This document shows positions 28,395 to 54,101 of a DNA stretch of 64,000 nucleotides, piece after piece. The position numbers were made by a program, and so were the translations under genes. Numbering within the stretch: the stretch's first letter is position 1; the number at the start of each line of letters is the position of its first letter. This stretch comes from Tribonema minus. Taxonomy: Eukaryota; Sar; Xanthophyceae; Tribonematales; Tribonemataceae. The stretch lies in contig JAFCMP010000212.1 in the NCBI GenBank assembly GCA_017506865.1, forward strand, positions 620,001 through 684,000, in the 5' to 3' direction. The notes below the pieces were generated by a model. That model was not told where the DNA came from, ran no database searches, and was given only the letters and a program-made list of their open reading frames with translations.

Positions 28395-28404
28395 TAGGTG
28401 GTAC
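28395..28404. repeat. Target-site duplication, left copy (TAGGTGGTAC)
   Basis: Identical to 30530-30539. The two copies bracket the nested retroelement. The GTAC end touches the element's 3' tail. Confidence 0.85.
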
Positions 28405-30529
28405 GTATGGACTTGTATTTATAAAGGCCCAAGGGAGGCCGGGTTGCCTATGCAATCGAAAAGCTTGCGTCAACGCAGCAGCCTAGTCTGCGCTGTGCCC
28501 TAGGAGCTTGGATACCGGCGCCGCAACACAGCCCAGCATTCGCGCTCCACGTGTGTACGCCATGACGCGCTCCGCCAACTCCCGCGCCAGCGATATGCTC
28601 AGCTCAATGAGGATCTGACGCTTAGCTAACCCGGCCTTGCGTAACACATCTGCCTTCCCCCCCCCTGAGCACAGTGCTGAGTGCATTGCCAACTCCTTAA
28701 CAAAAAGGCTTGTCTGCTTGCCCAGCCGTCCGTACGACTCCTGCACGAATGGCACAAAAGCCCAAGATGACGTCAAGGTGCCGGTGTGGTGCTTGACCTT
28801 CGCGTCCTCCCCCACCCCAGCAACATAGCCGTCCGTGTTCGAGGCATTTGTTTTGCCTGTCAGGTACGAGCTCGCTGTGGGCGCGCGCACACTTGTGTCT
28901 AGCACTATTCCCTTGTTACGGTATGCACTGCTAAAGTGCAGACACCCTGGGTCAATGACTGTGTCCGCCCGATACCCCGGTACCTTGAAGACGCTAGCGT
29001 CCTCATTGCGGACAATAGAGACATGGTGCTGTCTCAAGATGCGCTGCAGGCACCGCTTTTGGGCAGTATGTGTCGCGTTGTGCCCCCGTATGTGCTGGCT
29101 GGGGCAGCTGATCGCATGCGTGGAGGTGGGGCTCACATCACTGCACCGCCATGGGCACACCTCGCCCTGTATGCCCCACCCGTCTATGAAGATCGCAATC
29201 AAAATCATCGTGGCTGCTGCCATACTGGACATGGGCGCCGCACCCGGGCGGTCATTGGCAGTGGGTGGCACGCTCATCCACGCCATTGCCCCGGACGCAC
29301 GCTGGCTGCGCAGCTGCGCCAGGACCCGTGCGCTAGCCTGTTGGCGGCGGCGGCTGGTGTCGCGCGAGTCACCAATAGGTGCAGCCTGCGTCGGCTTGCC
29401 CACGGCACCAGCCGAGGCAGCCTCTAGGTCCTCCACCAGGCAATCCTCGTATTGACGTCGAAGAACATTTGAAAGGCCGGCTTGTAGTCCGTGCGTGAAG
29501 TGACCGCGCCGGCGGCGGGGCACTACCTTCCTGCAGATCTCGTCAGCATAGGCCTCCCAGTCGTCGTCGTCGTCCTCCTGCCCGCCGCTGCAGCTGCTTT
29601 CTTCCGCGCTAGTTTGTGTTTTAGCGGGCGTGGAAGGGGCAGCCGCGGCAGCGGCTTGAGGGCCAGGTACGGTCGCCGCCGCAGCGGCCGCCTCGGCGCC
29701 AGGCACAATGCCGTGGGTGTGTGGGGCTGGCTCAGTGGTCACTGTCTCCGTGACGGCAGTTGCGGCGTAGATCGCTTGCACCGCAGTGGTGAGCGTCGAC
29801 GCTGCGGCCGTCGTATCTGCTGCCCACCGTAGCAACGATGCTGGGAGCTGCTCGGCCACAGCTGTGCGTGATTTTTCGCCGCCATCAGCTGTCAGCGCTC
29901 GCGTAGAGCGTCGCACGGCCTCGATGATTGGCGGCAGTCCCTGGTCCTCGCGTATTGCGCATGAGTGCTGCGCGAACCAGGTGACTGCGCCGTGTTCGTC
30001 AGTGCCGAGCCTCAGGGCCCCTGCTGCCACAGTGGCATGAATTATTGCCGGCCTCAGTGTTGTGCATGCCTGGGCCGTGTATGCGGCTGGTGCCAGTAGC
30101 CCCAAAAGCGGCATGCCCAGACCGCCTCGTCGCTCCGGCAACCGTGACGCCCGCAGTGGCACTGCGATGTCCGTGAGTTCTGGCGGGCCCAAGCGCGGCA
30201 ATACCAGCACGCTGCCACTGCTGGCTTCCTCATTGTCACCAGCAGTGCAGGCGGCCAGCAGGTGTGACTTCATGGCTGCCGCGGTAGAGCAGCCGTGCAG
30301 ATGCAGCATGCGTTCGAGCGTCCATGCACAGAACCCGTCAAACGCGTGCAACCATGTCTCACTCAAAGCCGTGTCAACGACCCGAGCTAAGAAGCCCATG
30401 CGCTTCGTCAGTGACCTGCGTAGAATGAACTGTGCTGCCTGTAGGTGATGCCGCGCCATTCCAGCTAGCTGCCACGACAATCGCCATGTCCCTGCGTCGA
30501 CCAGATGCTTGCTCATGGCAGCGTGCACA
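28405..30529 (-). mobile_element. Retroelement family A, 5'-truncated copy nested in the LTR element
   Basis: A 2,125-bp insertion bounded by the direct repeat TAGGTGGTAC (28395-28404 and 30530-30539). Read on the minus strand it enters inside the coding region at 30529, so the reverse transcriptase core is missing. It runs through the C-terminal coding part to a stop at 28483 and ends in a 78-base 3' tail (28405-28482) that contains GGCAACCCGG and the CCCTTGGG palindrome and finishes ACAAGTCCATAC. The next bases are GTACCACCTA, the duplicated target. 5' truncation together with a 10-bp duplication is the hallmark of target-primed reverse transcription. Confidence 0.85.
28483..30529 (-). CDS. 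C-terminal part of a non-LTR retroelement polyprotein (zinc knuckle and RLE nuclease)
   Basis: A long open frame of about 680 codons on the minus strand; the first few codons upstream of 30529 belong to the host LTR element and are not part of this protein. Early on it has RLPERRGGLGM, typical of the post-RT region of such elements. An Ala/Thr-rich linker and a DDDDDW acidic patch follow. Then comes a zinc knuckle of pattern C-x3-C-x8-H-x3-C (CPWRC...HAISC) with a GHN motif. Next is a restriction-like endonuclease pattern with RAD, LDTSV and DAKVKHH as likely active-site elements, then FVPFVQESYGRLG. The frame is fully open, so the copy is either recent or under little decay. RT motifs are absent because of the truncation. 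Confidence 0.8.
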
Positions 30530-30886
30530 TAGGTGGTACTTGCCTCAACAAACAATCAGTTGCATGGACTAGCATTTATTTGCAGCATCGCAGGCGCGCA
30601 TGATCGGCTACTTCAGGCGGAGCTCTTCGTGCTGCTCCAGTAGCAACATTGATGGGTGAGTCTGCTGTGGAAACCGAGTCATGTGTGTACATATATGTGC
30701 GTATCATTAGGTGGGGGAGTACTACGTAGCAGTGATGTTTTTGTGGAGCTGGCTACCGTGTTTGCGGCAAACACAGCGTTCCCTGTAGCTCCTGTGAAAT
30801 CGTGCTAGCGCCCACTCGCCTGTGTATTTTGTCAGTAGCAGCATGAGGTGTCGTGTTAGCGGCCAATGATTATGGCGTAATGCAAG

Positions 30887-31363
30887 TTGTCAGGATTGGG
30901 CACACGTTCACCTGCAGTACCGGTTTTGGACTCAGTACGCGATGCGCTACGGGCATGCAGCGATCTGGTTGTTCAGAATAGGGACGTGCAATGCGCAGAA
31001 CGGCGGCGGCGCTACAGTGGTGATGCTAGTGCACAATCAACAGATATGCAAGTTGAAGTTGAACAACACACGGTGAATGCGGCAACAGATGACAGTGAAG
31101 GATTGGCACCCCGAGATGGTGCTGATGCCTGTCTTCTCTTGCTTGTGCACAATTCGCCTGTCATGCAGAGCTCCGAAGCTGAAATATGCACGGAGGACGG
31201 TGCGACTCGTGACGCATGCTTCGGTGCACCGGTGTGCTACGGAACTGAGGGGTGGGACGAAGGTCCGGTGCATACAGCTTCTGCTGGGCTTGCGGCTAGC
31301 ACCGTACTTACCAATGACAAGTGCGCCCGCGTGTGTAAAGCCTGCAAGGAGCTGCAGCACTGA
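30887..31363 (+). CDS. Unassigned frame inside the LTR element
   Basis: 158 codons on the element's coding strand between the nested retroelement and the MITE. It contains RDALRACSDLVVQNRDVQ and a Cys pair near the end (CARVCKAC). It may be part of gag or protease. No family is recognised. Confidence 0.3.
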   Translation: MSGLGTRSPAVPVLDSVRDALRACSDLVVQNRDVQCAERRRRYSGDASAQSTDMQVEVEQHTVNAATDDSEGLAPRDGADACLLLLVHNSPVMQSSEAEICTEDGATRDACFGAPVCYGTEGWDEGPVHTASAGLAASTVLTNDKCARVCKACKELQH

Positions 31364-31413
31364 CTGATAGGGTAATGGTGTCTTGTCGTAGCGGAGCTGT
31401 CGCCAAAGCACTG

Positions 31414-31822
31414 AGGAGAGAATTATTTGGGGCAATCCCTGGATACTAAAAGGCACCACAGGACATTAATGCAATGATCAAGTTGAAGATTGCACAACCA
31501 TTTGGCCGAACATCAACAGTTCGCTTCAGCTCGCTCTGCGGATGATGGTGCAATCTTCAAACTTCAAATTGGACAAACTTGACTCGAGACGCTACTGTAA
31601 TTGAAGTACAACTTCAAGTTGAAGTTAAACATCAACTGTCACGCTCAGTATTGACCATCATCTTCAATTTGAAGTTTGACGGTTGCATCACCGTCCGCAC
31701 AGCATCCTGAAGCGAACTGTTGCTGTTCAGTCAAATGATTGTGCAATCTTCAACTCGATCATTGCATTAATGTCCTGTGGTGCCTTTTAGTATCCGGGGA
31801 TTGCTCCAAAAAATTCTCTCCT
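31414..31822. mobile_element. MITE, family 1, 409 bp, copy 1
   Basis: Starts AGGAGAGAATTATTTGG and ends with the complement CCAAAAAATTCTCTCCT. The terminal inverted repeats extend for more than 80 bases through GGATACTAAAAGGCACCACAG and TTAATGCAATGATC. ACTG lies directly on both sides (31410-31413 and 31823-31826), a likely target duplication. There is no ORF. The interior is itself largely palindromic and rich in TTCAAGTTGAAG. It is inserted in the LTR element; the second copy is at 43493-43901 in opposite orientation. Confidence 0.88.
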
Positions 31823-34403
31823 ACTGTCAGACGCTGACCCCGACTTGATCACCATGTCGCCACCATGCATGGGTTTTGTGGACGGATTGCGATTTGTGCG
31901 AGACGTAGCGGGAGTCACACGGCTTGCAGTACTGTGCAACAGCTTCATGTGAAGGCGCAACCCCGCTGCGTGCTCTTGAACTTGTCAGCGATGCTCAGCG
32001 GCTGGGCTAGAGCGTTAGCATTATTACAGGCGCGCGGCTGTAGCATTCTTACGAGCAAGCTGAAGTGCTCAAATGACAGCGTACTCTGTCACCGTTGACG
32101 CACTTCAGTGCTGATGGTGAAGGCGGGTGCGGCCGTCGACGCCGCGTTTGAGCTCTACAGAGCATTTTCTAAATGCACTTGCATGTTTGACTGCTAGGCT
32201 CTCTGCACGTGTCGTCCTGCGTTTTGCTGACCTCACACAAATTTGAAGCCATGCGTTGAAGGCGCGCCAAAGGATTCTACGATGCCAATGATTGCCTGCA
32301 ACGCCCTGTACAGATGTGACACCACTGGTACGGGTGACCAGTACTTGTACGTGCATGATGTTAAAACAATGATGCCGGTCCGGTTGCAACCGCACGTGTG
32401 TTTTCATTGCGCTAAGCAGACTTGCGTAGCAGACATTGACTAGTGGCGCGTCTGTGAACTTGGCGGTGCCTTACATGGTGTTCAATCTTTTAGGATTGCG
32501 GTATTCGGCTCCAGCATGCCAGGACTTCCTGTAGACTAAGTCACCGGCCCCACCGGGGTCTACATGGAAACGGCGCGATTGCACTCGGGTGCCTGCCAGG
32601 GTACGAGGGTACATGCATTGGAAGACGCCAACGGGTTGCGTGTAGCGAAGGTACGTGTAGCGGCTGTGGCAGAGGAATCTGGAAGTACTCCTCCTGTTTC
32701 TCATCTGCTGCAATGCTATGCATGTCCATCTGCGGTTTGCTGACAGCGGCACTGACGGCACAACAGACGTTGACAGTTTGCCAGACCTGTGGGACGATGC
32801 AAGAAATACGACATGAGCGGGGACCATACGGTTGAGTGGAGCACTGCCGCAACGGGAGAGAATCGGGTGACGACAGCGACGGAGCTACGCGGCTGCGGAC
32901 AATGGCGGTAACGGAGCTATGCGGTCAACGGTTGAGCGGTTGCAAGTGAGCGCCGGTGAGCGGGTTTGGGAAACACAAAAGTGAGTGCCATTGTGGCGGC
33001 GCACGGGGAAGTGCTGTCTGTAGATCTTCATCTACTGCAGCATGGTGAAGGGGGACTATGTAACGGTTACCGTGACATGTGACAGGTAAACTGGCTCAGA
33101 ACAAACCATGCTTTAGCAACCTGATGGTGCGCACACGGCGCGCAGCTGGTTGCTGAAAGAGGCTATGTCTAGGGCTATGCTGAACAGAGGTGCTGCGGAT
33201 ACCTCGCTTGTGGCGGTTGTACAGGCCACCAAATTGAACAACTCTTGGTGTCCTGGGCCCACTTGAAGTTCAAGGGGACCATACGTTGTTGAGCTTGCTG
33301 ATGACAGTACCCACATCAGGAACGCGGTTCACGTGATGCTGAGGTTCGGTAACAAGCTGGTGTGGCACAGGTTTTATGTGTTGACAATTGTCTTTGCCCA
33401 TTGCAGCCATCCTTGGCAGTGATTTGAGCGCATAGCACACTCGGCTGACAAAGTACAGACGTAATTTTGCGCATACATGACGCGCAGAGCTGAAACCACA
33501 CTCTATGAAACCAACGTGTGTGCTGACACGCTGGGCACGGAGCCCCAGGGCGGCGCCATTTGTCTTGTTGAGGACGTTACTCGGGAACGTTCTTCAAGAT
33601 GAATGTTGACTCCGGAAGTTACACTTTTCACTGAGTTGGGGCGGCAGCCGTTTTCTTTCTTAAAAGATTGTTGACCACTGTTCTCCGATATGAATGTTGA
33701 AGTTGCACTTCACCATCCGCGTTGAAGTTGAACTTCACCAGTAGCTGTATTTGGATTGAGCAGCGTTGTCTTGTTGAGAATGCTGGAACCGTTCTCCGAG
33801 ATGATGTTGAAGTTGCACTTTACCTGCAGATATTGGGGTACAGCGCATGGCGGCAGTGATTGCGCCAACTGAGACGCAGACATGTTGAACTTGCGGTACA
33901 AAGGTGCCAGTGGAAGCTAAAGTTTCAGTTGAAGTACGGCCCTGCGACTCCCTGCACACTTGCTCGCGGACCTGTGTGGTCAAGGCACACTCACTCAGTG
34001 AGGCTCAACCGGCCACGAAAACACGGCATGATAGTGCTGGAGGCGCCAACTTTCAGCCCACTACATTGCAGCCCACGAGAAAGCTGTCTACAGCGGCGAC
34101 TTCGGAACACTCTGACCCTTCATTGCGGCTGTCGGTGGTGCGAGTTCTGGCGGACATTAACAAGAAGTCAGGTACATTTATAAAGCGGCGGCGCACACAG
34201 CGCCCGCGACTACTGACGATATGCACAGGCACCACCTAGCCGTATGCGCACTCCTCAAGAGTTGTGCACTGAGGCAGAGTTGCGTGAAGTGCGTTGCCAG
34301 TTAAATAGGATTGTAAAAATGAATGCAGTCACCAAAAAGACAGCAGGGGTCTACGTGACATTAATGACATGAAGCACAACCTGCGGATTCAAAGTACATG
34401 CCT

Positions 34404-34690
34404 AGTATTGACAAGGCTGCGGGCTATTACGAAATAACTCTGCGGAAGCGACCAGGAGAAACCGGCATTTAGAACTCCTTGAGCGGCCTGTGATAATACA
34501 CAGTGGCCCCATTTGGCTTGGTGAGCTTGCCGGCATGCAGCAGTGCGCAGTTTACTATATAGGCTAATGCATGGCGTTCTCGGCGAGGCACTTGACTCAT
34601 TGTAGGCATATGCCACGGTTTATGTTGATGATGTACTGATCTACGACAAACCTATGGCTGAGCACAATGCCCACATGGAGACATCCTCGA
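34404..34690 (+). pseudogene. Decayed Ty3/gypsy reverse transcriptase core
   Basis: Three RT blocks occur in order: SIDKAAGYYEITLRKRPGE (from 34404), VAPFGLVSLPA (from 34503, the MPFGL block of the family) and VYVDDVLIYDKPMAEHN (from 34615), which contains the catalytic YVDD. The HN tail after the aspartates resembles the gypsy pattern EEH, not copia. At least one stop codon and one frameshift separate the blocks, so the element is not autonomous now. Strand and position agree with the LTR, PBS and PPT orientation. Confidence 0.75.
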
Positions 34691-36401
34691 GCGGATTAAC
34701 AAGGCAGCATTTCATTAAAAACCGGTTCTACACTAGTCTGAGACACAAACTAACTGATACATAATGAAAACGGGTCATGGGGCACGGTGACTGAGGCATG
34801 CGGCCAGGCCCTGAAAAGGTCAAGACTTGGGGGTCACGGGTGACATGAGACTCAGTGAGCACTCACGGAGTTCAACACAAACTTGAAGGCAAGCTCAGGC
34901 TGATGAACATACTACAGACACGCACACGGTGACTCTTCAAATTGTCATCATGCAGCACAAACGCTTGTGCGCGAGGCAGCGGCAGACTTGACGGCAAGAA
35001 AGCTACTGCTATGCCATGAGGACGTGGGCGCACTGTTGAGAAGAGAGGAAATGGATTTAGTGGTGACGAGTAGGCTATTTTTCTGAATTTAATTAGACTC
35101 GGTGCGAAACGTGAAATCAGGTGCCACTGCGTTGGAGTGCCTGGCTGTGGTTCTGCGCTGAGTCACGGCCGGCCCTACGTGTGAGGAAACCCGACGGCGT
35201 CGCGGTTGCTATGGATGCATCTGCCCTTTGTTGACTCTTGACCCTTCAAGAACACAATGGTGGAAGTTGCTTTGATCGGCGTGAACTTCATGGAATGTAG
35301 GCATTGTGGTGCACGGTGCAGCATACATAGAGCGGGTCTGACTATTTGTTCTGCGGATAGCCCCTCACTGTTGCCCATGCAATGTGAGTAGGAGGCCTGC
35401 GCCTTATAAACATAGTATGAGCACTGCGGCACACAGACGAACACATAGTTGCCTTTGCAGACTTGTGACTCTCCTCTTGAAGTTGCAGAGTTGTGAGCTC
35501 AGTGTTTCAGTTCGACAGAGTTTTTCTGATTGTATGTTCAGAGCGGCAGATGAGTATTGCACGGCAGCGCGCCTGGCAAGCTTGACATATACTGAAAGTG
35601 TCGAGTCTGCTTGAGAAGCGGGCCTCCTTGGAAGTCATTAAATGTGTAAACACTATCATGGGACTGGAGCGATCTCCCCACTAAATGCCTGGGCACCCCT
35701 GCCACAACGGATCCGTATGCAAGTTGGACGAGGCCTTGGAGTCTGAACGGAATTATGAGCGCGTCATCACTGCACGTACACGGACAGCAGCGCGTGAGCA
35801 CAAGATGCACCGGACTTTGCCACGGACTCATTATGACCGTCAATGTGACCGCAACTGGCCACCACTACTGTGGAGGAGCCTATGCTGGCGTCGCTGGGCC
35901 ATAAACATACTACAAGAAAGAGGCACTGTCTGCCTGTGCAGGGCCTGCTGAGATGTGATGTGTTCGTACTGGCTTTGCAGTTTGAGACTCATCAGAAGTG
36001 GTGCAATGTCGAGGACCAAATTTGCTCGTGCACTTGCCAATAGCCGGGCAAACACGAATGGGTAGTTTGGCGGAGGGCAGTGCTGGCAGTTTGAAAGTTT
36101 GCGTCCTCTTGCACTATGAAGCGATCACTGCTGGCACAATGATGCCACGGCGCGACATGCAGGAGTCAACGAGACACAGCTTAGGAATTCATGAGTTTGA
36201 GTGCTGATTAATAATGGTTCTGGCTCGGGCCCTTGTACTTGTGAAGCAGGGCCCACTGCCAGTAGCATGTGAGCAATAAAGTGTCACTTCACAGCGAACT
36301 TTGACGAGTCATACGAGGGTCAGACGGTTTGCGTCAATACCTCTTCAACGTTCACGGGCTGGAGCATACTTGATGTGATACTCGCTTTAAAATAGTTGAT
36401 G

Positions 36402-36508
36402 TCTTGCCTTGGCAAAGACACGCTCAGAGTGCAGTACAACGGTGTACCTGCTGGGCAGCTTGGCAAGTACGCGCTCAGAGTGCAATACAACGGTGTACCC
36501 GCTGGGTG
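36402..36508. repeat. Tandem duplication of about 54 bp inside the LTR element
   Basis: The unit with CGCTCAGAGTGCAGTACAACG and GGTGTACCTGCTGGG is present twice in succession with a few changes. It lies in the decayed pol 3' region. Confidence 0.75.
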
Positions 36509-37433: not shown

Positions 37434-37447
37434 GAAGAAGGGGGGAG
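37434..37447 (+). other. Polypurine tract
   Basis: GAAGAAGGGGGGAG lies directly before the right LTR, where second-strand DNA synthesis is primed. It fixes the element's strand as plus. Confidence 0.8.
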
Positions 37448-37448
37448 T

Positions 37449-39876: not shown

Positions 39877-41173
39877 TGGCAGCGCTGGCGTCTCAACTCA
39901 GCTGACTGCCGGTAATCACAGCAGTGGACAAGACACTCAGTCTCCTCCATCCAATAGGTTGACTCCTGTTGGGGGCGGGGGCAGTTGTGAACAGTACTCA
40001 GTGCTGCGGACATATGAGTTTGGCAGCGATAACAAGGGCTGACAGTGTGTGCGGGTTGGAGGAGTCGGTGCTAGTCTAGACGACGAGGCCCTGGGACTCG
40101 AAGCAACTTGAACAGCACCTATGGCGGCAAGGCTAATGGCGGGTGACAGCAACACGGATAGCGTCACACAGTCTGCTTGCAGAGGTACTGGCCATGGCGG
40201 CACAACACACATGTTTGCACCTCTCTGTGGTGATCATGTCGGCATCCAGCTGTGTTCTGCAAAGGTTGCAGGAGCTGCTTGCGAGCATGGCAAAACGCAC
40301 GCAGCTGCTTAGCAATATCGGCTACTGGCTCTGTCTGCAGTACACCTGCCTCAGCGCTGCTGCAGCATCATGACTGGACCTAGCGGCAGTCACGGGGGTG
40401 CACAGTGTTCAGCAAGGGTTGCAGGTGCTGCAGGCATGGCAGCGACACACGCAGCTCAGTGCCATGCCACTATGTCTTGGCTTGACGGCAGTGATCTGCC
40501 CATTCTTGGTGGCTGATGCCACTGCGTCATCTAGCGCGCTTTTGCATCTCATCGTGCGAGAGCGTACATTCTCCTTTGCTTCCGCCAGACTGCTGTGTGA
40601 TGTGTGTGTTACAGGAAGCCGTGGTAGCTGATGACCACCAGATGTGCAGTCGCAGAATTAGCACTGCCACCTGCCAGTGGGGCTTTGTTGCTACACTGAC
40701 ACTACATGGCTGCTAGGCAACCCGGCCTCCCTTGGGGTCTTTATGAATACCAGTCCATAAGTATGCGGCTGCCACAGCGGCGTCTTCAAGCAAGTCTACT
40801 GCATTTCGCGCCGTCAAAACTTGAAAGGTCATTATTATTGCGGGCAGAACGTGTTTATTGGCTAAACCCTAGTGATAGTTCAGCCCTACTAGTAACTTCA
40901 ACATGAGGCTAATCCTAAACCCTAGCTGGTGATACCGCACGGTAAATGAAATCCGGCTGTTACCGCATACACACGTACGTACATACCCAAAAGTCCCGGT
41001 CTGGACAATGCTGGCGGAGGTACAAGTGCAACAGCACCTGTGTGGTGGTCAAAGAGAAATGCACATATTGCAACTCTGAGGTTCAAATTTATTTTAACCG
41101 AGGTTCAACTTGAAGCTGAGCAATCATCGATGCTGCTTGCAACTGCTGATAATCACTGGACACCTCAAACAAG
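39877..41173. other. Repeat-derived stretch without a clear gene
   Basis: Short Gln/Ala-rich frames on both strands, with the same GCAGTGCTCAG-like words as the preceding stretch, then more AT-rich sequence with TTGAAG motifs from 41.0 kb. Confidence 0.3.
40714..40759 (+). repeat. Tail fragment of retroelement family A
   Basis: TAGGCAACCCGGCCTCCCTT and then an AT-rich end finishing CAGTCCATA match the last 46 bases of the element at 28405-30529. The following AGTATGCGGCTGC partly matches the preceding ACTACATGGCTGC, perhaps a decayed target duplication. Confidence 0.6.
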
Positions 41174-41185
41174 CTGGAAGCGTAC

Positions 41186-41344
41186 TTTTTCTTAGTTCTC
41201 GCTCAGGGCGCGAAAAAGCCCAGATGATTGGCATCTAGCTGTAAGGAATCTACATGTCGTATGACAGTCTGAAAGTGTCGCAACGACAACCACTCAAACG
41301 CCGCCGCCGCCAAATGGCATCTCGGGGTCCTCCCCTACGTCCTC
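41186..41344 (-). mobile_element. Retroelement family B, 159-bp 5'-truncated insertion
   Basis: Flanked by CTGGAAGCGTAC at 41174-41185 and 41345-41356. In minus orientation it ends CTAAGAAAAA and joins GTAC directly. Its sequence matches the 3' end of the larger copy at 52249-53063. There is no complete gene, so it is a dead-on-arrival copy. Confidence 0.88.
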
Positions 41345-41380
41345 CTGGAAGCGTACCTCTCATGGACGTGGTCATTGTAC

Positions 41381-41601
41381 TTTTTATTAATTCTCGCTCA
41401 GGGCGCGAAAAAGCCCAGATGATTGGCATCTAGCTGTAAGGAATCTACATGTCGTATGACAGTCTGAAAGTGTCGCAACGACAACCACTCAAACGCCGCC
41501 GCCGCCAAATGGCATCTCGGGGTCCTCCCCTACGTCCTCCTCCATGTGCCCCCCCCCCTGGATTCTGCCATGTGTGTCATGACACGGCCAGAGTACGCCA
41601 T
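41381..41601 (-). mobile_element. Retroelement family B, 221-bp 5'-truncated insertion
   Basis: Flanked by GTGGTCATTGTAC at 41368-41380 and 41602-41614. In minus orientation it starts inside the end of the coding region (HMAYSGRVMTHMAES), carries the whole 3' untranslated part and ends TTAATAAAAA, joined directly to GTAC. It lies 24 bases from the preceding family B insertion, in the same orientation. Confidence 0.88.
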
Positions 41602-41792
41602 GTGGTCATTGTACATATGACTCCCGCCATGGAGATGAGTAGTGTTCAGACATGCCGTGGTTGCAAGGCCACATCTCCCCATAATGTGTGCGGCTCGCAA
41701 TGCAGTACGAGCATGGACGGGGTGCAAGCCACATCACATCACTGGCAGTAAGCACAAGCACCTGGTTCATTCATCTGAGTAGTACAAATAAA

Positions 41793-41862
41793 TCCAAGAG
41801 TGAGAACAAGGCGACACACCTACAACATGGCATTTCCACAGCCACAAGTGGAATATAATAAG
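41793..41862 (+). mobile_element. Retroelement family C, 70-bp tail insertion beside the glycosyltransferase stop
   Basis: Flanked by AGTACAAATAAA at 41781-41792 and 41863-41874. The insert (TCCAAGAGTGAGAACAAGG ... TGGAATATAATAAG) is the reverse complement of 53079-53147, the 3' end of family C. The tail again meets GTAC. It lies about 20 bases beyond the GT92 stop codon, so it probably forms part of that transcript's 3' end. Confidence 0.85.
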
Positions 41863-41881
41863 AGTACAAATAAATTATCGT

Positions 41882-44817
41882 CTACCAGACATTACCATAC
41901 CCTGCGGCACGCTCTGTCAACGCCATTCCAATCAGGCGCTTTTTGACTCGCTCCCAGTACAGTAGGGCGTACTCGTCCTGTTGCGCGGTTGCCTCCATGT
42001 CCGCCACGTTGACCCTGAAGCTGGCCATGTTTGTGAAGTGGCGGATATGGCCGGTTGTTATTGGGGTTCTTGGTCTACAAACTCCCAGGTAGGAATATTC
42101 GTCGTCTGCATGAATCCTGCATGACCCGGCCAAGTGGATTCCAGCAAAAAATGACTTGCTAGTGCGCGTGATTGTTTTCTGGCGCGAAGACTTGGCCTCC
42201 TTCATGCGAACGGTAAAATCAATGCCGTTCATATGTGTGCGCGGCACAGCAAGGTCCTGCGCCACCGTGTCGTATGAAAAGAAATTGGCGCCGCACCACT
42301 CAGGGCAATCGGGGCTGTCCAAGGTCTCAAGCACGTTGAGCAACGCACTCGATGACATGTCAGCAGCAGATGGCACGAAGTATTCGTCGATATCCCAAAT
42401 GGCCATGAACTTGGCGTGGCCCTTCGCATGAGCCAGGCAGACCTGTTCAAACATCACAGGGCGGTGTTACAGGGGCAACAGGAGGGCGAGTGCGTTTAGG
42501 TTATTGTAACAATCATGATCTGCGTTTTACGCGACTTGTGCTAACAAGGAATAGTAGCTGCTGAGTCACAAATGATAATCAAAAGCTTTAAGGTGGCCGA
42601 ATGATTGTGCCAGTTGCATCCTCCTTCGATTGGTGCACAATGACATGCTGCCTGCCACAACTTTGCAAGGCAATGCAGCATCTTTGAGTTGCTGCACTTA
42701 GTAATATAGATGCCAGTGATTCAACTTTGATCTTCAAGCCCCATTGCAGAATTCCAATGCCAGAATAGTGATCACTGCTAATGATGTATGTGACAGCAAA
42801 GAGCACGAGGGCTGTCCCGCGTCGCAATGCTACTGCTGCACTTCGTGCGGGAGGACCAATGCAGTCCAGAGTGGGAACGTACAACTTGAGTTGAACAACC
42901 AGGAGTGATATCAATGGGGCAAGATGGGGCAAGTTGTGCAGTACCAGCCTCCCTTGGGCCTTTGCAAGTACAAGTCCACTTCTGCACTTGGCTTGGCGGT
43001 CAGTGACCGTTTGATAGTGTAGATAGCGCATGTGTCACACGTTTGAGACAGAACATGTGTACACGAGTTGCATATTATGTGTTTCATAGGGTTTCCGCCC
43101 CTCAAGCAAAATTAAATAAAGTACCCTCAAGCAAAATTAAATAAAGTACAAGTCTACGAGTACCTCGTGTCCAACAGTATACCTTCTTCTAGAACACGTT
43201 ACTGTCATTGACAGGGGCTGACCCCAAGTCAATACCTGGCGGTGAGTCCTTGCAAGAGCCGTTACACAAACCCACAATTTTGTGCCTGTGCAGTCAGCAG
43301 AGTTGCCACTTTTTTGGATAGTCAGCAGCTGCCAATAATTGATATTGGCAACTGCTGAAACTAGTGCGAACATGCCATTGGATGATTGAAACAAAATTGT
43401 CTTTGGCCCGTTTTGCCTAAAAGTGGATGGTGACAGTCTGCGAGCTGCACTACTCACGTGACAACTCAGGTGCATGTGCAGAACACCAATTAAGGAGAGA
43501 ATTTTTTGGAGCAATCCCCGGATACTAAAAGGCACCACAGGACATTAATGCAATGATCGAGTTGAAGATTGCACAATCATTTGACTGAACAGCAACAGTT
43601 CGCTTCAGGATGCTGTGCGGACGGTGATGCAACCGTCAAACTTCAAATTGAAGATGATGGTCAATACTGAGCGAGACAGTTGATGTTTAACTTCAACTTG
43701 AAGTTGTACTTCAAATACAGTAGCGTCTCGAGTCAAGTTTGTCCAATTTGAAGTTTGAAGATTGCACCATCATCCGCAGAGCGAGCTGAAGCGAACTGTT
43801 GATGTTCGGTCAAATGGTTGTGCAATCTTCAACTTGATCATTGCATTAATGTCCTGTGGTGCCTTTTAGTATCCAGGGATTGCCCCAAATAATTCTCTCC
43901 TAATACTAATGCTTATTCCACGATGCAGCAGTGAAAGGAAGCAGGGAGTGCAAGCCGCGCACCTGGTACAGCTCCACTTGGGTTGCAATCGTGTTCAGGC
44001 TGCTCAGGAAGCAAGGCTCATGAACCATCAGCAGCACCACGGTTCCCTGGTGTATGAAGTGAGCCAGCTCCTGTTTAACTGCATAGAAGTTTTCCTTGTA
44101 TGTCCCCAGGTAGATGAGGCCTACACCAATCTGCAGGTGGTGGATGATCCACTCCCGTAAATATCGCACTGTCTTGCCGTACCCTCCGATAGCGCAAAGC
44201 ACGATTGGCGATGCATGCGCAAGTATGGGGCCAGCCGCCAATGGGCGGAGCACAGCGGCGCTGCCAACACCGCCATAATGAACTGGGATGTTCAGGTCGG
44301 TCACAACCTCCTCACTCTCTGTCACGATCTCAACGTTTAAATGCCCAGTAGGCGCTTGCAGCAGGTCCTGCTTTTTAATCAATGCAGTCACATTGCAGGA
44401 CCAAGTGTGCGTGACGCCTTGTACGTCAGGGTTAAGGCTGAGCTGTGGGTATAGCTGCATTGGAACTGGTGCTGCGGCACTGGACCTGTCATCGCCTGCC
44501 ACACCTGGAGCATGTACCCTGCAAAACAGTGTCTTTGCCTCTGTGGCCTTGCGATCAAACACTGTGTTATTGAGCAACATGACAGTGCTGTATGCTATCT
44601 CGTTCTCATCAAACAACTCCACAGGTCCTGGATGGCAATGCTCTTGGCCCGTCCACTCCCTGACCGATCGGACTGGCCGAGGTTCACCCCTGGTGATCCA
44701 AGTGGTCTTATCAGCGCCATGCAGAGTAATAAGCACGTCGTCTGTCGATCCATAAGTCGTGGTGATCTGTGCACCATGAAGATAAAGCTGACCATGCAAG
44801 AAGGGGCCGGGCATCAC
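41882..44817 (-). CDS. GT92-type glycosyltransferase, two firm exons
   Basis: A predicted Golgi or secretory-pathway glycosyltransferase of the GT92 (DUF23) family. Exon 44817-43963 follows a GGTGCAG acceptor and carries a beta-rich N-terminal part, then IGGYGKTVRYLREWIIHH and the GVGLIYLG block, the GT92 entry motif. Donor CAG/GTGCGC and acceptor GAACAG/GTCTGC join in phase 0, giving ELYQ-VCLAHAKGHAKF. Exon 42442-41882 follows with AIWDIDEYFVP, the DxD-type metal and nucleotide-sugar site, and ends at TAG. The two exons encode 471 residues with no break. The intron (43962-42443) contains a 409-bp MITE and a retroelement tail. A 5' exon is needed; 47393-47058 is a phase-compatible candidate. 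Donor sugar and acceptor are unknown. With the transporter at 15.8 kb it points to an active glycosylation pathway, though the genes are 20 kb apart. Confidence 0.85.
42941..42978 (+). repeat. Tail fragment of retroelement family A in the GT92 intron
   Basis: GCCTCCCTTGGGCCTTTGCA followed by AGTACAAGTCCA matches the last 35 bases of family A. It is opposite to the direction of transcription of the host gene. Confidence 0.6.
43493..43901. mobile_element. MITE, family 1, 409 bp, copy 2, in the GT92 intron
   Basis: Aligns as the reverse complement of 31414-31822 along its whole length and has exactly the same size. Terminal inverted repeats begin AGGAGAGAATT and end AATTCTCTCCT. The flanks (ATTA / AATA) do not form a perfect duplication. 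It sits about 60 bases into the intron after the 43963 donor. Confidence 0.88.
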
Positions 44818-46455: not shown

Positions 46456-47057
46456 CCACAGCAACGATATATACCTGACTCAACTTGATATGTACTGGAT
46501 ACTTGAATTTAAAGGTGTAGCGTACTACGTATAGTGGCAACACCTTTTATGCATGCAATCAATGCAATGCGAAGTGCTCCTTCCTCGTTTTGGTTCGCTC
46601 CTGGACCAGCGGCGAAAGCCTACACCACTAATTATGTATAGTATACTTAGTCTACTAGTATAGGATTGTAAATTACAAGCCTATTAGTAAGGTTATAAAC
46701 ATGTCGATTGTCTTAAAACCACTGGACCCAGTGCCTAGCCAGAGCAACAATATCATTATACCAGACTCAGTTGGCAGCAGTAGAGCTCACGAAGGTGTGT
46801 CAAAGTGCGCCAAGGTCGAACTAGAAGAGACCAAATGCGTCAACAGTACTCCAATCTTTAAAAAAGGTTTTAACTACTAGTAGTACATAGATTATATCTA
46901 TCCATGCAGGCTACACTAAGTCCTGCCTCAGTTCGGATCTAACCTCAAGAATGAGACTCCGGACAACCAGCCTGAGGCGCGCAAGAGTGAGGTTAAGTTT
47001 TCATTCATGGTTGTTCACCTGGCCTGAGGTTGAAAGTTTGCATTCATGGTTATTTAC

Positions 47058-47393
47058 CTGGCCCAGCCGGTCGGTATACCCAACGCCGTAAAAGCTGAAG
47101 CTGCGGTCGCCATTGTGTACGTTAAGCCTCCCCCCGTGCACACCATCGCATGAGAACTCCAGCATCAACCAGCAAAATGTCACGATGACCGTGAGGCTGG
47201 GCGCGGGCCAGCGCGCTGCTGTCATCTGGTCCAGGAGTTGTTTGCTGGTCAACGTCGACTTATTTGCACGCGCGTATTGTCGCTTCGGCAGCCCCGTTCC
47301 CTCGCGGGAGAGATTGATGGAGATGCGCTGGAACTCCCCTACGGCCTGAGCACAAGCCAAGTCTGCTTTAGCACTGGGTGTTGTATTTAGCAT
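47058..47393 (-). CDS. Possible first exon of the GT92 gene
   Basis: Begins at an ATG (47393), runs 112 codons and ends GYTDRLGQ at a CAG/GTAAAT donor in phase 0, which would join in frame to the GT92 exon at 44817. It includes a hydrophobic stretch (SLTVIVTFCWLMLEF), possibly the signal anchor of a type II membrane protein, though it is rather far from the N terminus. The intron would be 2.2 kb. It could instead belong to another gene. Confidence 0.35.
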
Positions 47394-47972
47394 CGTAAAA
47401 AAAAACAAAAAACAAGCATCTGGCTCGCCGCACCCTCTCGTGCCAAATACGATGCCCCGAATCGATGCACTCTTTCGGTTGGTCTGACATCAGGAGAGGC
47501 ATGCTTTCTTGGCCAGCTCGTCAAAAGGTCCAGCTAAAATCTTGGGGGGGCCGAGTATCCCACGGCAGCATCGAGCCTGGCTCATTGCAACCCTTTCGTA
47601 AAATCCACGACAGCTGGCGTCGCTGTGCTTGCGCTGTGCATGCTCTGTGCAGCTGGTTTGTTGCGTGCAGCGCACGCATCATAAAGTGTTGAAAAACATG
47701 ACGTTGCTCGCACAGGTGCAAGCACAGGTGCTAGCTACTGCAGCTGCCAACGCGCACGCGCGATGTGTGCTGCGACAACGCTGTTGTTTTGCTATCGAAT
47801 GATGTGCATGGCTATGACAAGCTGTACGCACAAGCTCTAGGTTGCGTGGTGTTCGTTGTGCAATGCCTGGCGGTGCAAAGACCACGCGTCATTGACTGCG
47901 AGCTATAGTCGCCTCCAATCTCGCCTCCTATCTTAGACGGCTACATTGTCGAGCAGGTATGACATCACCCCT

Positions 47973-48548
47973 CTAGCCGCCTAAGATTGCTGCCGGTCGG
48001 GGCGACGCGCCGCCCCACAGCAACAAGATTAACGCCATAGAAATCGCTAGCATACAATGTATGCTTACTTCAGCTACTTCAGCTACTTTCCGGCGTGTCT
48101 CTTCCGGAGCGCAGGTAGATGTGACGTCAAGTCTATGTGTGTTTGCCTGCTGGGGAATGGCGAGGACTCTGTGGGGTTGCAGCATGCACGCAGAGAGCGC
48201 CGGACCTGCTCTGCACTGAGACTCAACGAGTTGCCAACGCGCGGCAGCTGGCTTTTCAGGTGCGTTCTGGAGCAGCGGGGCTGCCTTGCACACCGCATTC
48301 ACGATGCCATCGAGATGCTGGGTGTGATTACACATCGACGTAAGGCTCGCATGACGCTCGCACGTGCAGCAGCAAAGTTGATTTTGCATGCAAACTTCAG
48401 TAGTTTGTGCGTGCTCTTGATGTGGGTCTCTGTTGAGGAGTGCTAGGTGTGTACCCGAAACCCATACATTCAATTCTGGGATACCCTGTATCGGCATGCA
48501 TTCGTGTGGCAACGTACCTTCCAGTTTCTTGGAGGCCCAGAGTTGCAT
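47973..48548. other. Overlapping open frames on both strands, unresolved
   Basis: The minus frame 48548-47973 (191 codons) and the plus frame 48057-48446 (129 codons) are both open. The plus frame has RTCSALRLNELPTRGSW and RIHDAIEMLGVITHRRK; the minus frame has VNAVCKAAPLLQNAPEK. Neither matches a family I know, and at most one can be real. Confidence 0.25.
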
Positions 48549-49226
48549 GTTTCAGGTATGATACATTTGCCCATCAAACTGTGTGCAACTCATCACCCCT
48601 TGGCATGAATGGCTGTCACAGTGATTGCACAACAAAAACAGGTGCAGCATTTCAAGACGATGCTGCATTGTAGAGCCTTTCATCGACACTCAGAACCAAC
48701 ACACTGCTCACGACTATCTTCATTCTCATTCGTGTCGTCGCCGTGTGCCGCTGCCGCCGCACTGGCCACTGCAGCCTCTGCCGCTGCCTGCGCCGTAGCC
48801 GCTGCATCTTCTTGGACTTAGGCCCAGGAATTATGCCGCCACCTGCGGCAGCAGGATGCGCGCGCCATGACGGCGACAAACTGCCCAACTCCAAGCGTCG
48901 CGAGGACGGAGAGGATGGCGCCGCGCCGCTATCCCTGTCAGCATGCGTGCGCGCGCACTGCCTCCGCAGCTCCGTACACGGGAAAGGCCATGGCCGCTCC
49001 GCCTTCCGCTCCTTTTCTGGCTAGTGGTGACGGCGGAGGCGCGGCAGGGCGACAGCGCCAGCGGTGGCGGCGGCGGCGGCAGCGACAGTGGTGGCGACGA
49101 CGCCGATGGCCGGGTCATTGGCGTGCACATGTTTGTATTGGCGCGCAAAGAAGGCGAGGACAATGAGCGCGCACGTGCGGGGCCGCAGAAGTCCTGGGCT
49201 AACGAGGTGCCAGACGAGCACTTGCG

Positions 49227-51060
49227 ATGCATCAGCATCCATCAGGCGAAGTAGAGGCGTGGGGCCAAGCGGCGGTGCCAGCCCTTGTGCACCACGGTGC
49301 CGTTTGCGATGCCCTGCAGCGCGCAAGCTTAGACGTCGTCATCAGCCAGCTCGCCGACGGCATGCTTACGTTTGTCGCCGCCAACACGCTGGTGGGCGAC
49401 GCGGTGGCGCGGCGGCGGCGGTGGCCGCGGACCACGTGGGCGTCGCCGAGCTGCGCACCGCGCTGTGCGGTGCGCTTGCGCTGCTGCGGCTGCAGGACGC
49501 GTGGGTGGCGCCGACGCGTCTGGGCAACCGGCAGCACCTCCTGACGCTCGCGAACCGCGCCGTGGGGGTGCTCGAGGTGGAGGCCCCGGCGCGCGCGTTC
49601 CACCGCCTCGGCGACGCCGGCATGGTGAGTGCCGCCGCTGCCGCTGCTGCCTGCTGTGCGCGACTGTAGTTGGTGTTTTGGCACTCACACAACGGAGAGC
49701 GCAAGGCCGGGAGAGGCGGTTGCTGGCAGGCGTGCCGACAGCGCGGCACAGCGCGTGCGGCGCCAGAATACACTTCAATTCACCTGACATACTGGTGAAG
49801 CGCAATACTCGTGACGCGGGCGCGCGCGGCCTCCAGTGCGACACAGCGGCCCAGCGAGGCGCATGCTCGCGATGGATGTGCACGTGCCTCTGCGCAGCGT
49901 GCAGTGTCGCAGCTCCGCGGCCGCAAGCATGCGGCGGCAGTAGTACAACGTACCGACCGTGATGCGCAGTGCGCAGCCAACATGGTACGGCTCGCCGCGG
50001 CGCAGAGCTGCGGCCGTCATGACAGCTTCATACCTGCCTTCATGCGCAGTGCTCAGCAAATCGTGGTGCGATGCGCAACGCGCCGTCGCAACGCAGGTGC
50101 GCGGCCTCGAGCGCGCGGCGGCGGCGGAGGACCGGCGCCTGCTCGCGGGCGAAATCGCGGCACTGTTCGGCGACTACGGCCCCGCGCAGGTCCTGGAGCT
50201 CACGCTGGGCAGCGCGCGGCCGCTGGCAGCGCTCGACATGCGGCGCAACCTGCTACACTGGGAGCAGGCGCTCAAGCTGGCAACGGCGCTGCGGCTGGGC
50301 GCCATGCCAGAGGTGCGCCGTCGTCGTCAACTTCAATTTTGTGTTGAAGTGCAATTGGGCGGAGCGCGTGCGAGGGAGGTGGCGCGCGTGTGGCGCGGAC
50401 GCTTCAAAGTTTCTTCATTGTTGTTGTGTGAATGTTGGTCGTGGTACATCGCGGTTGGCCCTGACCAATTCCTGGCCCTATACCCTTAACTCTAACCCTG
50501 ACCCTAACCCTAGCCATAACCCTAGGTGCTCGCTGCGGACGCCACCCTGGATGTTGAAGAATTGTCTATATTGGGATGTGCGCTTGCGTCTGAGCAGTAT
50601 GCTCACCTCATTGTAGTAGTAGCTGTAAATGTAATTCTCTCTGTCATGACCTCCGACCAGGTCCAGCACATCCTTTACCAATTAACTCAACTCAATGACC
50701 GATGCCCGTCTATGCCTGCAGGGCATGCGGAAGCGGTGCTGCCAACGCCGCCGGAGCACAGTCGATATTGACCATTCCCCCTCCCCCCTCCTCGCTTCTG
50801 CGGCTGCGTGGCAGATCAGCGCCGCATACGCGCAGCAGCTTGAGTCCTGCGGCGAGAGCGACACGGCGCTGCGCATGTTCCAGTAGGCGCTCGCGGGCCT
50901 CGACGACGGCGGCGCCGCCGCCGCCGCCGCCGGCGCCGCGCAGCTGCGTGCCACCTGCGCCGCTGGGCAGCACCGCCGCCGGCGCCGCGCAGCTGCGCGC
51001 CACCTGCGCCGCCGGCGTCGCGCGCTGCACGCTGCGGCTTAACGACGTACGGCGCAGCGT
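49227..51060 (+). pseudogene. WDR19: IFT144 (WDR19) C-terminal TPR-like region, broken
   Basis: IFT144/WDR19 is a subunit of the intraflagellar transport A complex, needed for retrograde transport in cilia. Three segments match the family in order: HHGAVCDALQRASLDVV... to RAFHRLGDAGM (exon end 49624 before GTGAGT); 50097-50312 (RRLLAGEIAALFGDYGPAQV and LAALDMRRNLLHWEQALKL, ending at CAG AG/GTGCGC); and 50815 onward (ISAAYAQQLESCGESDTAL, then RATCAAGVARCTLRLNDVRR). All exon ends have splice signals, and a long pyrimidine tract precedes 50815. Three defects are seen: a frame change in the GCG run near 49410, an in-frame TAG at 50884-50886, and a 49-bp tandem duplication (50931-50966 / 50980-51015) that shifts the frame. 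The N-terminal WD40 domain is not visible upstream. Telomere-like repeats lie in its second intron. Confidence 0.75.
50488..50527. repeat. Interstitial telomere-like tract in an IFT144 intron
   Basis: Consecutive CCCTAA-type units, including CTAACCCTGACCCTAACCCT. It lies between exons ending at 50312 and starting at 50815, so it is intronic. Confidence 0.65.
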
Positions 51061-51120
51061 CGCGCTGGCGTGGGCAGCAGCAGCCGGCGACAGTGGCGGC
51101 GACGGCGGCAGCGGCGGCAG

Positions 51121-51151
<31 letters not shown>

Positions 51152-51490
51152 AGCTACGGCGTGCGGCTGCTGCGCGTGTGCGCGGTGATACCGAATGATG
51201 GAGTATGATACCTACATACCCTACTTGCATGTGCATGCATACCTACACAGGTTTCTCCATTCTGGGAGTTTCTCCTGTTAGTCCACCACTGCATGTTCCA
51301 GCACCAGTCCGGTACTGTTCCGGCCCTGACTTAGAGCTAATTCTCCGCTTGCACAAGCACCTGCACAATAATCACTTCTTTGCAACTCCAGCCTGCCCTG
51401 GTCTAGTGCTGTTCTGCACTTTGCATTGGCCCACTGGCAGGGTCCACCTTGGGTGTCCTACTCTGCCACGGTGTTTAGTTTCGTCAGGTT

Positions 51491-51754
51491 ATGATGGCCT
51501 CCATGCGGATGGACACCAAGGTGCCGCTGCCACAGTTCGATGGGCAGCACGAGAACTGGGACCAGTTCTCTTACCTCTTCTTAGCCATCATGGCATCAAA
51601 GGGGTTCACCGGAGAGTTTCTCAACTTCCGGCTCTCCGACACGGAGGAGGCGCAGCTGAAGGCCAAGGACGACTACGCCAACTTGAAGATGAATCAACAC
51701 TTCTTCGGCTGTCTGGTGGCATCTATCAGCTTCACAGCCACAGCCGAAACTTGA
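51491..51754 (+). pseudogene. Ty1/copia-like gag fragment
   Basis: An 87-codon frame starting at ATG 51491 reads VPLPQFDGQHENWDQFSYLF and LAIMASKGF, then an Asp/Glu/Lys-rich part with KAKDDYANLKMNQHFFGCLV. This is the layout of the N-terminal gag domain of copia elements, including those of diatoms. It stops early at 51752-51754, and no protease, integrase or RT follows. The preceding TGTTAGTCCACCACTGC (about 51276) could be an LTR start, but no second LTR is in the window. Confidence 0.55.
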
Positions 51755-52236
51755 AGCAATCAGAGACCGTCACGGTCACGCCAATATGAGTGCTGATCAG
51801 TTGGCATGCAGACAATCGAGCGCTTATTAATCAGTTGATATTCAAGTTAACAACTGGTGCCGTCACGGTGCTTAATTCACTGTGGCACTGCAACGGTCGG
51901 ACCAAGCTGGCTAAAATCGAACTTCGTTGCACAAGCACTGCCATGGCAGGCTCACGCTCAGGCTGGAGCTCAACTTGAAACGGCAGCACGCTTTTGAATA
52001 TTATGATAATGTTGAACACAAGCACACATCGTCACGGTGTCGCGCAAAGCGAGCCAAGGCGGATGCTGAATCAGATGACGGTGCAAATGAGCGTGCAGTG
52101 CAAAGCAGCCGGGCACTGCATGGCATGCCAACGTTAAAGTGAATGGCAACATGCCATTGGATGCCATTGCAATATTGCACTGCCAGACTGAGTATGAAGC
52201 GATTGCAGTGGGAATGGGGCCTGAAGCGGAATAATT

Positions 52237-53075
52237 CTTGAGTTGTACTTTTTATTAATTCTCGCTCAGGGCGCGAAAAAGCCCAGATGATGGTCTGACT
52301 TGATGCTGCTGTACGGAATCTGCATGTCGTGTGACTTCTGAAAGTGTCTCAACGACAACCACTCAAACGCCGCCGCCGCCAAATGGCATCTCGGGATCCT
52401 CCCCTACGTCCTCCTCCATGTGCCCCCCCCCCCTGCCAGTGGATTCTGCCATGTGTGTCATGACACGGCCAGAGTACGCCATGTGGAGCGCTGCCGACAG
52501 TGCCGAGCGTAAGCGCGCCAGGGCGATGCCCTTGAGAGCTTTAGGGCGCGCTTCTCCGGGCACTGACATCCTGCTGGCATACTCCGTCGCCACAGCCTCC
52601 AGCAGCTTCCGCCCCTGCTCCCCGATGCTGCCAAAAGACCCGATTGCCAATTGGCTTTAAAGTTGCAAGTTTGTAGCAATTCTGGTCATAATGACCAGAA
52701 TAGTGGGATAATTTGGCGGCCTCTTGGTCGCGACAGCAGTGCTCGGGGTCTGCTGCAGTCTTCGCCGCCCGCGACGCCACCTGTGCCTCGAAGCAGGTGA
52801 CGTCCACCATGAGCGGTAGGTGGCGTGTCGGGTCGTCGTAGCCGGTCACCGGGAAGGCGTCGGCAGGCAGCACGATGTCCATCCTGCGACTCCCCGGCGG
52901 CCCGGCGGATCCCAGAAATGGCGTGTAGTCCTCGTCCACCAGTCCCGTTTTGAGGTATTGCCGCAGGATGCGCTGCGTAGCCCTCTTGACGCTATTGTGG
53001 ACGATGGTGTTGTGCGCCTTGACGCGTGGCGCTTGACACAGACGTGCATGCAGGGTGCCACCGCTTAAGTTGTAC
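52237..53075 (-). mobile_element. Retroelement family B, 815-bp 5'-truncated copy with target duplication
   Basis: CTTGAGTTGTAC (52237-52248) and CTTAAGTTGTAC (53064-53075) bracket the insert 52249-53063. Read on the minus strand the insert starts inside a zinc-knuckle region and ends with a 3' untranslated part and TTAATAAAAA joined to GTAC. The right-hand target copy is itself the bases at the 3' end of the neighbouring family C element, so family B inserted at the GTAC next to that element's tail. Confidence 0.85.
52363..53063 (-). pseudogene. Family B C-terminal RLE nuclease region, frameshifted
   Basis: On the minus strand the frame opens with the end of a zinc knuckle (LHARLC, then KAHNTIVHN), followed by RATQRILRQYLKTGL, which corresponds to RCLQRILRQHH in family A. 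A restriction-like endonuclease pattern follows: RRMDIVLP, LMVDVTCFEA and EAAKLSHYSGHY. After KLATL a frameshift near 52,650 leads into AIGSFGSIGEQGRKLLEAV, the counterpart of the YGRLG block, ending ALHMAYSGRVMTHMAES and a stop at 52363. The similarity to family A is clear but distant, so B is a separate lineage of the same group. Confidence 0.75.
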
Positions 53076-54101
53076 TTTTATTATATTCCACTTGTGGCTG
53101 TGGAAATGCCATGTTGTAGGTGTGTCGCCTTGTTCTCACTCTTGGATGTAGCATGCAAAGCTTGCACGCCACACCCCGCCCCCCACATCACCCCCAACAA
53201 AGCACCCGCAAGCGACTGTCCCCCACATACTAGCAGGGATACCAAACAAAGCTACAAGACTCTCCCCCCACAGACAGACCCGTCTTAGGGCCACCCAGCT
53301 CCACGCAGACTCCATCTCAAAGTTTTCATGCAGGCCAAGGTCACCATAATGGGCCCTGAACTGGAGATTGTGGCTATCTACGTGAACCCCGATGTCATGA
53401 AGATAAGCAGAGGGAGTCACTGGGCGCCAGGCGCTGACGCTAGAAAGAAAGGCTATATAACTAAGCAAAGCATCGCCTCCTTGATGAGCGGGACGGTGGT
53501 TCACCGGGCCTCCCATATCACCCCCAACAAAGCATCCGCAAGCGACTGTCCCCCACACACTAGCAGGGATACCAAACAAAGCTGCAAGACTCTCCCCCCA
53601 CAGACAGACCCTTCTAAGGGCCACCCAGCTCCACGCAGACTCCATCTCAAAGTTTTCATGCAGGCCAAGGTCACCATGATCGGCCCTGAACTGGAGATTG
53701 TGGCTATCTACGTGAACCCCGATATCATAGAGATAAGCAGAGGGAGTCACTGGGCGCCAGGCGCTGACGCTAGAGAGAAAGGCTATATAACTAAGTAAAG
53801 CATCGCCTCCTTGATGAGCGAGGTCACGGCTCACCGCAGGCTGCAAGCCTGACAAGATATTGCCATTTACCGCTGCGAGTAACTTGTGGTTGGTGCCGTG
53901 GCGTGCAGCCGACTCCGCTTGCTCTCCAAGCACGCCAAGCCGCTGCCTGTCCCTCCTCCGCACGCCAGCCAGGGCTTCCGAGACACCACCACACGTTTGA
54001 AGTTCTCTCGAAGGGGCTACGCACGCTGGCATCACCTGAGGGCCGCTGGTGCTAGCTTCTGCAAGCCCTGCAGCCCAGCCCACCCACCAAACCAGCCGCA
54101 T
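53076..54101 (-). mobile_element. Family C element with a tandemly duplicated coding unit
   Basis: A minus-strand open frame (54101-53136, 321 codons) is followed by a 60-base 3' tail that ends TGGAATATAATAAAA directly before GTAC. The frame contains a unit of about 106 codons twice in tandem (AHQGGDALLSYIAFLSSVSA ... GTVACGCFVGGD; about 330 bp of DNA per unit, roughly 53180-53505 and 53510-53830). Part of the opposite strand (53328-53798) is also open, so the coding strand is not certain. The tail orientation and the 70-bp dead copy at 41793-41862 show that the element moves as a retroelement whose 3' end is at 53076. No RT or nuclease motif is recognised. Confidence 0.6.

Follow-up and report, generated by a model that had tools for sequence, protein, structure and literature searches.

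Retrotransposons without long terminal repeats (non-LTR) that carry a restriction-like endonuclease (RLE) are, in the portions of PMC4640811 on which we draw here and below, mostly specific for repeated genes or microsatellites, with many non-specific families in HERO. The endonuclease of EhLINE1 from Entamoeba, as treated in the portions of PMC3118788 used here, prefers to nick GTATT, and so there is precedent for RLE elements with a short site. The present analysis concerns a stretch of 64 kb from the genome of the alga Tribonema minus (contig JAFCMP010000212.1, positions 620,001 to 684,000; hereafter the window), in which the original prediction saw retroelements joining their 3' tails to GTAC and contrasted this target with the long fixed sites of most RLE elements. 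That contrast is a fair one within these sources, with EhLINE1 as a known exception. Our conclusion is that the elements, sorted here into the tail families A, B, C and D, are very probably R2-group (RLE) non-LTR retrotransposons with a target of four to five bases, inserting by target-primed reverse transcription (TPRT) after an R2-type endonuclease nick, TGTAC^, on the primer strand.

Throughout the genome from which the window comes (158 Mb in 554 contigs), copies were found by exact anchors in their tails, which leaves copies with an altered anchor uncounted; of the 4309 found, 3737 (87%) have GTAC after the tail, far above chance. The likeness to EhLINE1 and EhSINE1 lies in an RLE (putative in our families) with CCHC and PD-D motifs, a short nick site, targets common to long and short interspersed elements, and duplications with single-copy empty sites (PMC3118788, in part). 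Families A, B, C and D likewise share GTAC at the junction, and so work like it as far as the junctions go. The difference is that the Entamoeba case, in the same portions of PMC3118788, concerns what the purified endonuclease prefers, together with hot spots of nicking, whereas here a palindromic GTAC is found in four tail families, at 87% of 4309 junctions.

GTAC as the insertion target

By family, GTAC stood at the 3' junction in 2194 of 2480 family B copies (88%; ∼44 expected), where it had to lie 8–12 bases past the anchor, in 426 of 449 family C copies (95%; ∼6 expected), and in 1117 of 1380 copies of families A and D taken jointly (81%; ∼20 expected). Chance expectations were taken from the frequency of GTAC in the window, and a reversed-pattern control gave 0 matches in all six anchor searches. 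The strong genome-wide enrichment is what the original prediction had called for, and its count of at least three tail families also held, A, B and C being accompanied by D. The latter, whose tail is TATAAATACAAGATCATAA, is related to A (15 such among the ∼100 A and D matches listed, counted by eye); its tail is joined to GTAC at locus L045 and to GTAG at L054, and is also present, reversed, in the 5' flank of L073.

The target logo and the duplication tests rest on a sample of 96 tails (12 A, 50 B and 34 C), most of them with 1.5 kb of upstream sequence. GTAC lay within 16 bases of 83 of these (A 11, B 40, C 32). When the 95 distinct junctions were aligned on GTAC where present, G, T, A and C were each found 90 times and the fifth position was A in 71, compared with 69 of 228 GTAC occurrences in the window at large (p ∼6e-19 for the excess), while positions beyond showed no consensus.

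At least 9 bases starting from GTAC are repeated upstream of the element in 31 of the 83 GTAC junctions, where ∼2 would be expected with swapped targets. These repeats are 9–14 bases long in 30 of the 31 and 18 in the other. In 19 they reach 0–2 bases to the left of GTAC; for the remaining 12, the sequence adjoining on the left mostly finishes in A's and is often another element's tail. Because most loci reach only 1.5 kb upstream, duplications around longer copies could not be resolved. In a search with no requirement for GTAC on the left, which located the left copy using only the bases after the tetramer (threshold of at least 8 bases), 20 of the 96 tails were resolved, and GTAC was found on the left in 15; the remaining five look like chance or element-internal matches. 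A 10-bp repeat with GTAG on both sides accompanies one family B copy whose tail meets GTAG; this lone case falls short of the threshold set for the 20 resolved tails. At locus L005 one GTAC adjoins both an A tail and a reversed C tail, the sole such case among the sampled junctions.

Uninserted sites were sought by searching ten joined flank pairs together and scoring 40 of 115 candidates. Two other places, at 97% identity, match the site of the family A insertion in the window without the element, and both have the sequence GGCAA-GTACCACCTA-GTC there. Three places show the family C site L063 uninterrupted, with a single GTACAAGCAC in each. The repeat concerned has a fourth copy, at L079, where ∼50 bp of family B has been inserted 24 bases further along, at a different GTAC, and the other three copies are empty at that point. 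Thus A, B and C are each represented by one insertion whose uninserted site already contains GTAC. Near-identical empty paralogs were available for two of the ten sites queried; three more (L051, L052 and L053) had only diverged paralogs (74–80%) in which the site lacks GTAC, evidence that counts neither for nor against the claim; one (L032) was uninterpretable owing to a nested insertion, and for four no match spanned the junction. The possibility raised with the original prediction, that GTAC is part of the element, is answered by these empty paralogs and by the left duplication copies (15 of 20), which carry the tetramer: GTAC belongs to the target.

Insertions in the window

The features of the window that bear on this conclusion are the following (motifs were identified by eye).

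28395–28404, no strand: family A target duplication, 3' end, TAGGTGGTAC, 10 bp, with GTAC at the junction
28405–30529, minus strand: family A insertion of 2125 bp, truncated at its 5' end and with its 3' end at 28405; two empty paralogous sites, 97% identity
28888–28974, minus strand: family A putative restriction-like endonuclease motif (YRADTVID ... IVLDTSV)
29104–29157, minus strand: family A CCHC zinc knuckle motif (CPWRC...HAISC), in a region aligned with family B
30530–30539, no strand: family A target duplication, 5' end, TAGGTGGTAC, 10 bp
40742–40759, plus strand: diverged A/D-like tail, the seventh tail in the window, joined to GTAT
41186–41344, minus strand: family B insertion, truncated; 12-bp duplication CTGGAAGCGTAC at 41174–41185 and 41345–41356
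41381–41601, minus strand: family B insertion, truncated; 13-bp duplication GTGGTCATTGTAC at 41368–41380 and 41602–41614
41794–41862, plus strand: family C insertion, truncated; 13-bp duplication AGTACAAATAAAT at 41781–41793 and 41863–41875
52249–53063, minus strand: family B insertion, at the GTAC following a family C copy
53076–54136, minus strand: family C copy, almost full length and considered non-autonomous

All six insertions originally described in the window do end at GTAC, and five of them are flanked by duplications containing it, of 10 bp for family A and 11–13 bp for the others. One of the five is mismatched: the copy at 52249–53063 has TTGAGTTGTAC and TTAAGTTGTAC, differing at one base, at 52238–52248 and 53065–53075. 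No target duplication was seen in the sequence flanking the family C copy at 53076–54136. Two boundaries needed correction, in that this copy runs to ∼54136 rather than to 54101, and the short family C copy starts at ∼41794 rather than 41793. The tails had been described as A-rich or AT-rich; that of family A (TTTATAAATACAAGTCCATAC) is AT-rich and not A-rich.

Two exons were also recognised in the window, one of a nucleotide-sugar transporter at 19075–19707 on the plus strand (PF04142, E 1.9e-66), and one of a GT92 glycosyltransferase at 41882–42457 on the minus strand (PF01697, E 4.4e-9), close to the short family C copy. A pherophorin profile (PF12499), tried as a lineage marker, had 0 matches, but its controls were equally without a match and no weight is placed on this.

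Coding capacity of the families

The 64 best-scored places of 7582 first-look candidates for family A are 99–100% identical over the C-terminal 683–690 residues. In one copy, L070, 2968 codons form a single stop-to-stop frame, and a further nine places have frames of 2968–2981. The L070 frame holds zinc-finger-like cysteines (by eye), a reverse transcriptase (RT), a CCHC knuckle and an endonuclease-like motif. Its RVT_1 match, at residues 2030–2241, scores 29.0 bits, just below the cut-off of 29.6, and the N-terminal finger region gave only a sub-threshold zf-C4 match (E 0.85) in the database search. Family B has a 1786-codon frame in ∼44 of 146 scored places (counted by eye), with C2H2-like fingers (by eye), an RVT_1 match of 41.1 bits, above the same cut-off, a knuckle and an endonuclease-like motif; the copy at 52249–53063 carries HARLC (53036–53050), RRMDIVLP (52865–52888) and LMVDVT (52796–52813). 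Alignment of A with B gives 30% identity over the RT region and 25% over the C-terminal one; the C-terminal regions also match by tblastn (24% identity, E 1e-4). In Pfam scans of one full frame of each family at E≤0.5, RVT_1 was the only match and no apurinic/apyrimidinic (APE) endonuclease was found.

A joint profile of the A and B RT regions retrieved five sequences from PDB at E≤1 (8gh6, with the best E of 1e-5, 8ibw, 9nl3, 9dou and 9nl2). Three of these are named R2; the others, 8gh6 and 8ibw, which we take to be silkworm R2, are entered as 'Reverse transcriptase-like protein'. The original prediction had credited A and B with a zinc knuckle and an RLE. CCHC and PD-(D/E)xK-like motifs are indeed seen by eye at the C-terminus, while the endonuclease fold finds no profile match; the motifs and the R2-like RT together suggest that both families carry an RLE, and on the conclusion favoured here A and B are autonomous.

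Beyond the profile match, the likeness to R2 extends to a single open reading frame, in which the RT is followed by a CCHC and an endonuclease-like motif, and to the signature of TPRT. Unlike R2, with its one long fixed site in 28S ribosomal DNA (rDNA; PMC4640811), these families use a dispersed site of 4–5 bp. Their copies are dispersed across many contigs, and an Rfam scan of the window gave no match at gathering score, so that the window sites are not 28S rDNA insertions.

Between the N-terminal fingers and the RT of L070 (reverse strand), at residues ∼1110–1310, we noticed by eye an OTU-like cysteine protease motif (GNGNCL ... HFELL); the stretch has no Pfam or PDB match. Dualen/RandI elements, which share an RLE (putative in ours) with our families, carry a cysteine protease. 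They differ in having APE plus RLE (PMC4640811), whereas A and B have no APE match; RandI occurs in green algae (PMC3747384, in part). NeSL, Utopia and R5 are likewise RLE elements with zinc fingers, some with an N-terminal cysteine protease, but theirs is Ulp1-like, and they target spliced leader (SL) or U2 genes, rDNA, tRNA genes or microsatellites (PMC4640811).

Family C is ∼1.06 kb long, and 11 of its 34 sampled copies reach a common 5' sequence, GCTCGTTAACGCC (by eye). The window copy has, at 53136–54101 on the minus strand, an internal duplication of ∼320 bp (∼95% identical) and a 321-codon open frame. Because this frame has no Pfam match, the family looks non-autonomous. A short motif resembling a hairpin, GTTAACGCC-GAAA-GGCGTGG and variants, stands at the start of a family C copy (L050, 5' end) and of C-like sequence 5' of a family B frame (L073); no Rfam ribozyme match was found at E≤1 in the three loci searched. 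Four matches to bacterial small RNAs in L073 (E 2.9e-5 to 0.28) were dismissed as chance in a GC-rich frame, being far under gathering scores. The tails themselves end in AAAAA (B), AAAA (C), CATAC (A) and CATAA (D). A conserved RNA fold in the tails was considered and rejected: hairpins are predicted in all four, but 16 to 102 of 200 shuffles fold equally well (z +0.10 to −1.52).

A retroelement family chosen as a control turned out on inspection to be a Gypsy LTR element, and was thus unsuitable as a non-LTR control. Loci L085, L086 and L087 are near-identical Gypsy LTR copies, the last diverging into a Copia-type gag-pol frame (by eye).

Proposed insertion mechanism and alternatives

Alongside the observed target sequence, 3' junction position, empty sites and R2-like RT, the insertions bear the signature of TPRT, namely a fixed 3' end, 5' truncation and target duplications, which are observed too. 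In the mechanism that we propose, the element protein would find GTAC, preferring TGTAC on the primer strand, and nick directly 3' of the C. The freed ...GTAC-3'OH would then serve as primer for reverse transcription starting at the AT-rich 3' end of the RNA. A cut in the other strand ∼9–14 bp off would give duplications beginning with GTAC, and the many 5'-truncated copies would come from incomplete copying. That the primer strand would end ...TGTAC-3' at the nick, with the second cut ∼9–14 bases away, follows from the resolved duplications, which on the element-sense strand start with GTAC; the choice of first-cut strand is assigned from the TPRT model and is to that extent provisional. The endonuclease domain itself may be what reads GTAC; in R2, N-terminal DNA-binding domains take part in site recognition. 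Family C was presumably mobilised in trans. Since GTAC reads alike on both strands, elements can enter in either direction, and an insertion with a full duplication, which includes the site, is flanked at each end by a GTAC that later insertions could use.

Several observations weigh against this proposal. There are 572 of 4309 exact-anchor copies without GTAC at the expected place, and nine of the ten sampled family B exceptions are single substitutions of it (GTGC four times, GTAG twice, and GCAC, GTAT and GGAC), meaning either that GTAC is a strong preference or that some copies have mutated. (The tenth has GTAC 13 bases downstream; of two sampled family C exceptions, one continues into another C copy.) No clear duplication was found in the sampled sequence for 52 of the 83 GTAC junctions, and the family B insertion at L079 duplicates at most 3 bases (GTA). 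On the protein side, the full A and B proteins used as single PDB queries found no retrotransposon protein, the C-terminal region of A and B has no Pfam or PDB match, and the spacing of its two acidic motifs, 21 residues in A and 24 in B, is wider than the PD(X)10-14D of EhLINE1.

The same junctions could also arise from a nuclease of little specificity, if the element RNA ended in GUAC (or UAC) and selected nicked GTAC ends by base-pairing. GTAC is self-complementary, the CATAC ending of the family A tail is close to it, and cutting and annealing are inseparable from 3' junctions alone. Yet the tails of A, B, C and D end differently while the target is common to all, and the GTAG-joined family B copy, single case though it is, has its variant tetramer on both sides of the repeat; we regard such pairing as unlikely. 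We think it very improbable that host breakage at GTAC, by a host endonuclease or at fragile sites, supplies nicks that are used opportunistically. One site common to several families would suit that explanation, and a Gypsy and a Copia element are also present in the genome, but A and B encode an endonuclease-like domain of their own, and since these domains are similar between them, a shared specificity is expected from descent.

It is scarcely credible that GTAC represents the last four bases of the element: the tetramer does follow the tail in 87% of copies, and at L079 it adjoins the tail while the opposite side shows no more than GTA, but the empty paralogous sites, those of L079 included, carry it, as does the 5' duplication copy. 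Just as remote is the reading of these elements as DNA transposons, or as LTR elements, whose target duplication is a fixed GTAC; it would account for a short fixed target but not for variable 5' truncation, variable repeat length or an RT profile matching R2, although no systematic search for terminal repeats was made.

Returning to R2-type insertion at GTAC, a bolder version of it is one that we advance tentatively, doubting it slightly more than we believe it. The endonuclease domain would read the five-base TGTAC^ almost like a restriction nickase, would have kept this specificity while A and B diverged to ∼25–30% protein identity, and would serve non-autonomous partners. The palindromic site, duplicated by insertion and usable from either strand, would provide the elements with their own landing pads and so give rise to clusters. 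Together these would make a compact, modular, site-specific TPRT system.

No earlier report of GTAC-targeting non-LTR elements was found in the open literature, partly consulted, Repbase and subscription papers being outside the search. What seems to be new is the strictness of the site (87% of 4309), a palindromic tetramer with one further preferred base, its sharing by four tail families, and the many copies with long open frames.

RLE retrotransposons serve as models and tools of target-primed insertion and, to our knowledge, how their proteins read a site has been worked out for few of them. A strict site of 4–5 bp, present in thousands of copies of elements with many long open frames, amounts to a natural mutational scan of recognition, in which GTAC can be compared with GTGC, GTAG and GCAC. 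Furthermore, a palindromic target that regenerates itself would cleanly explain nested clusters of elements.

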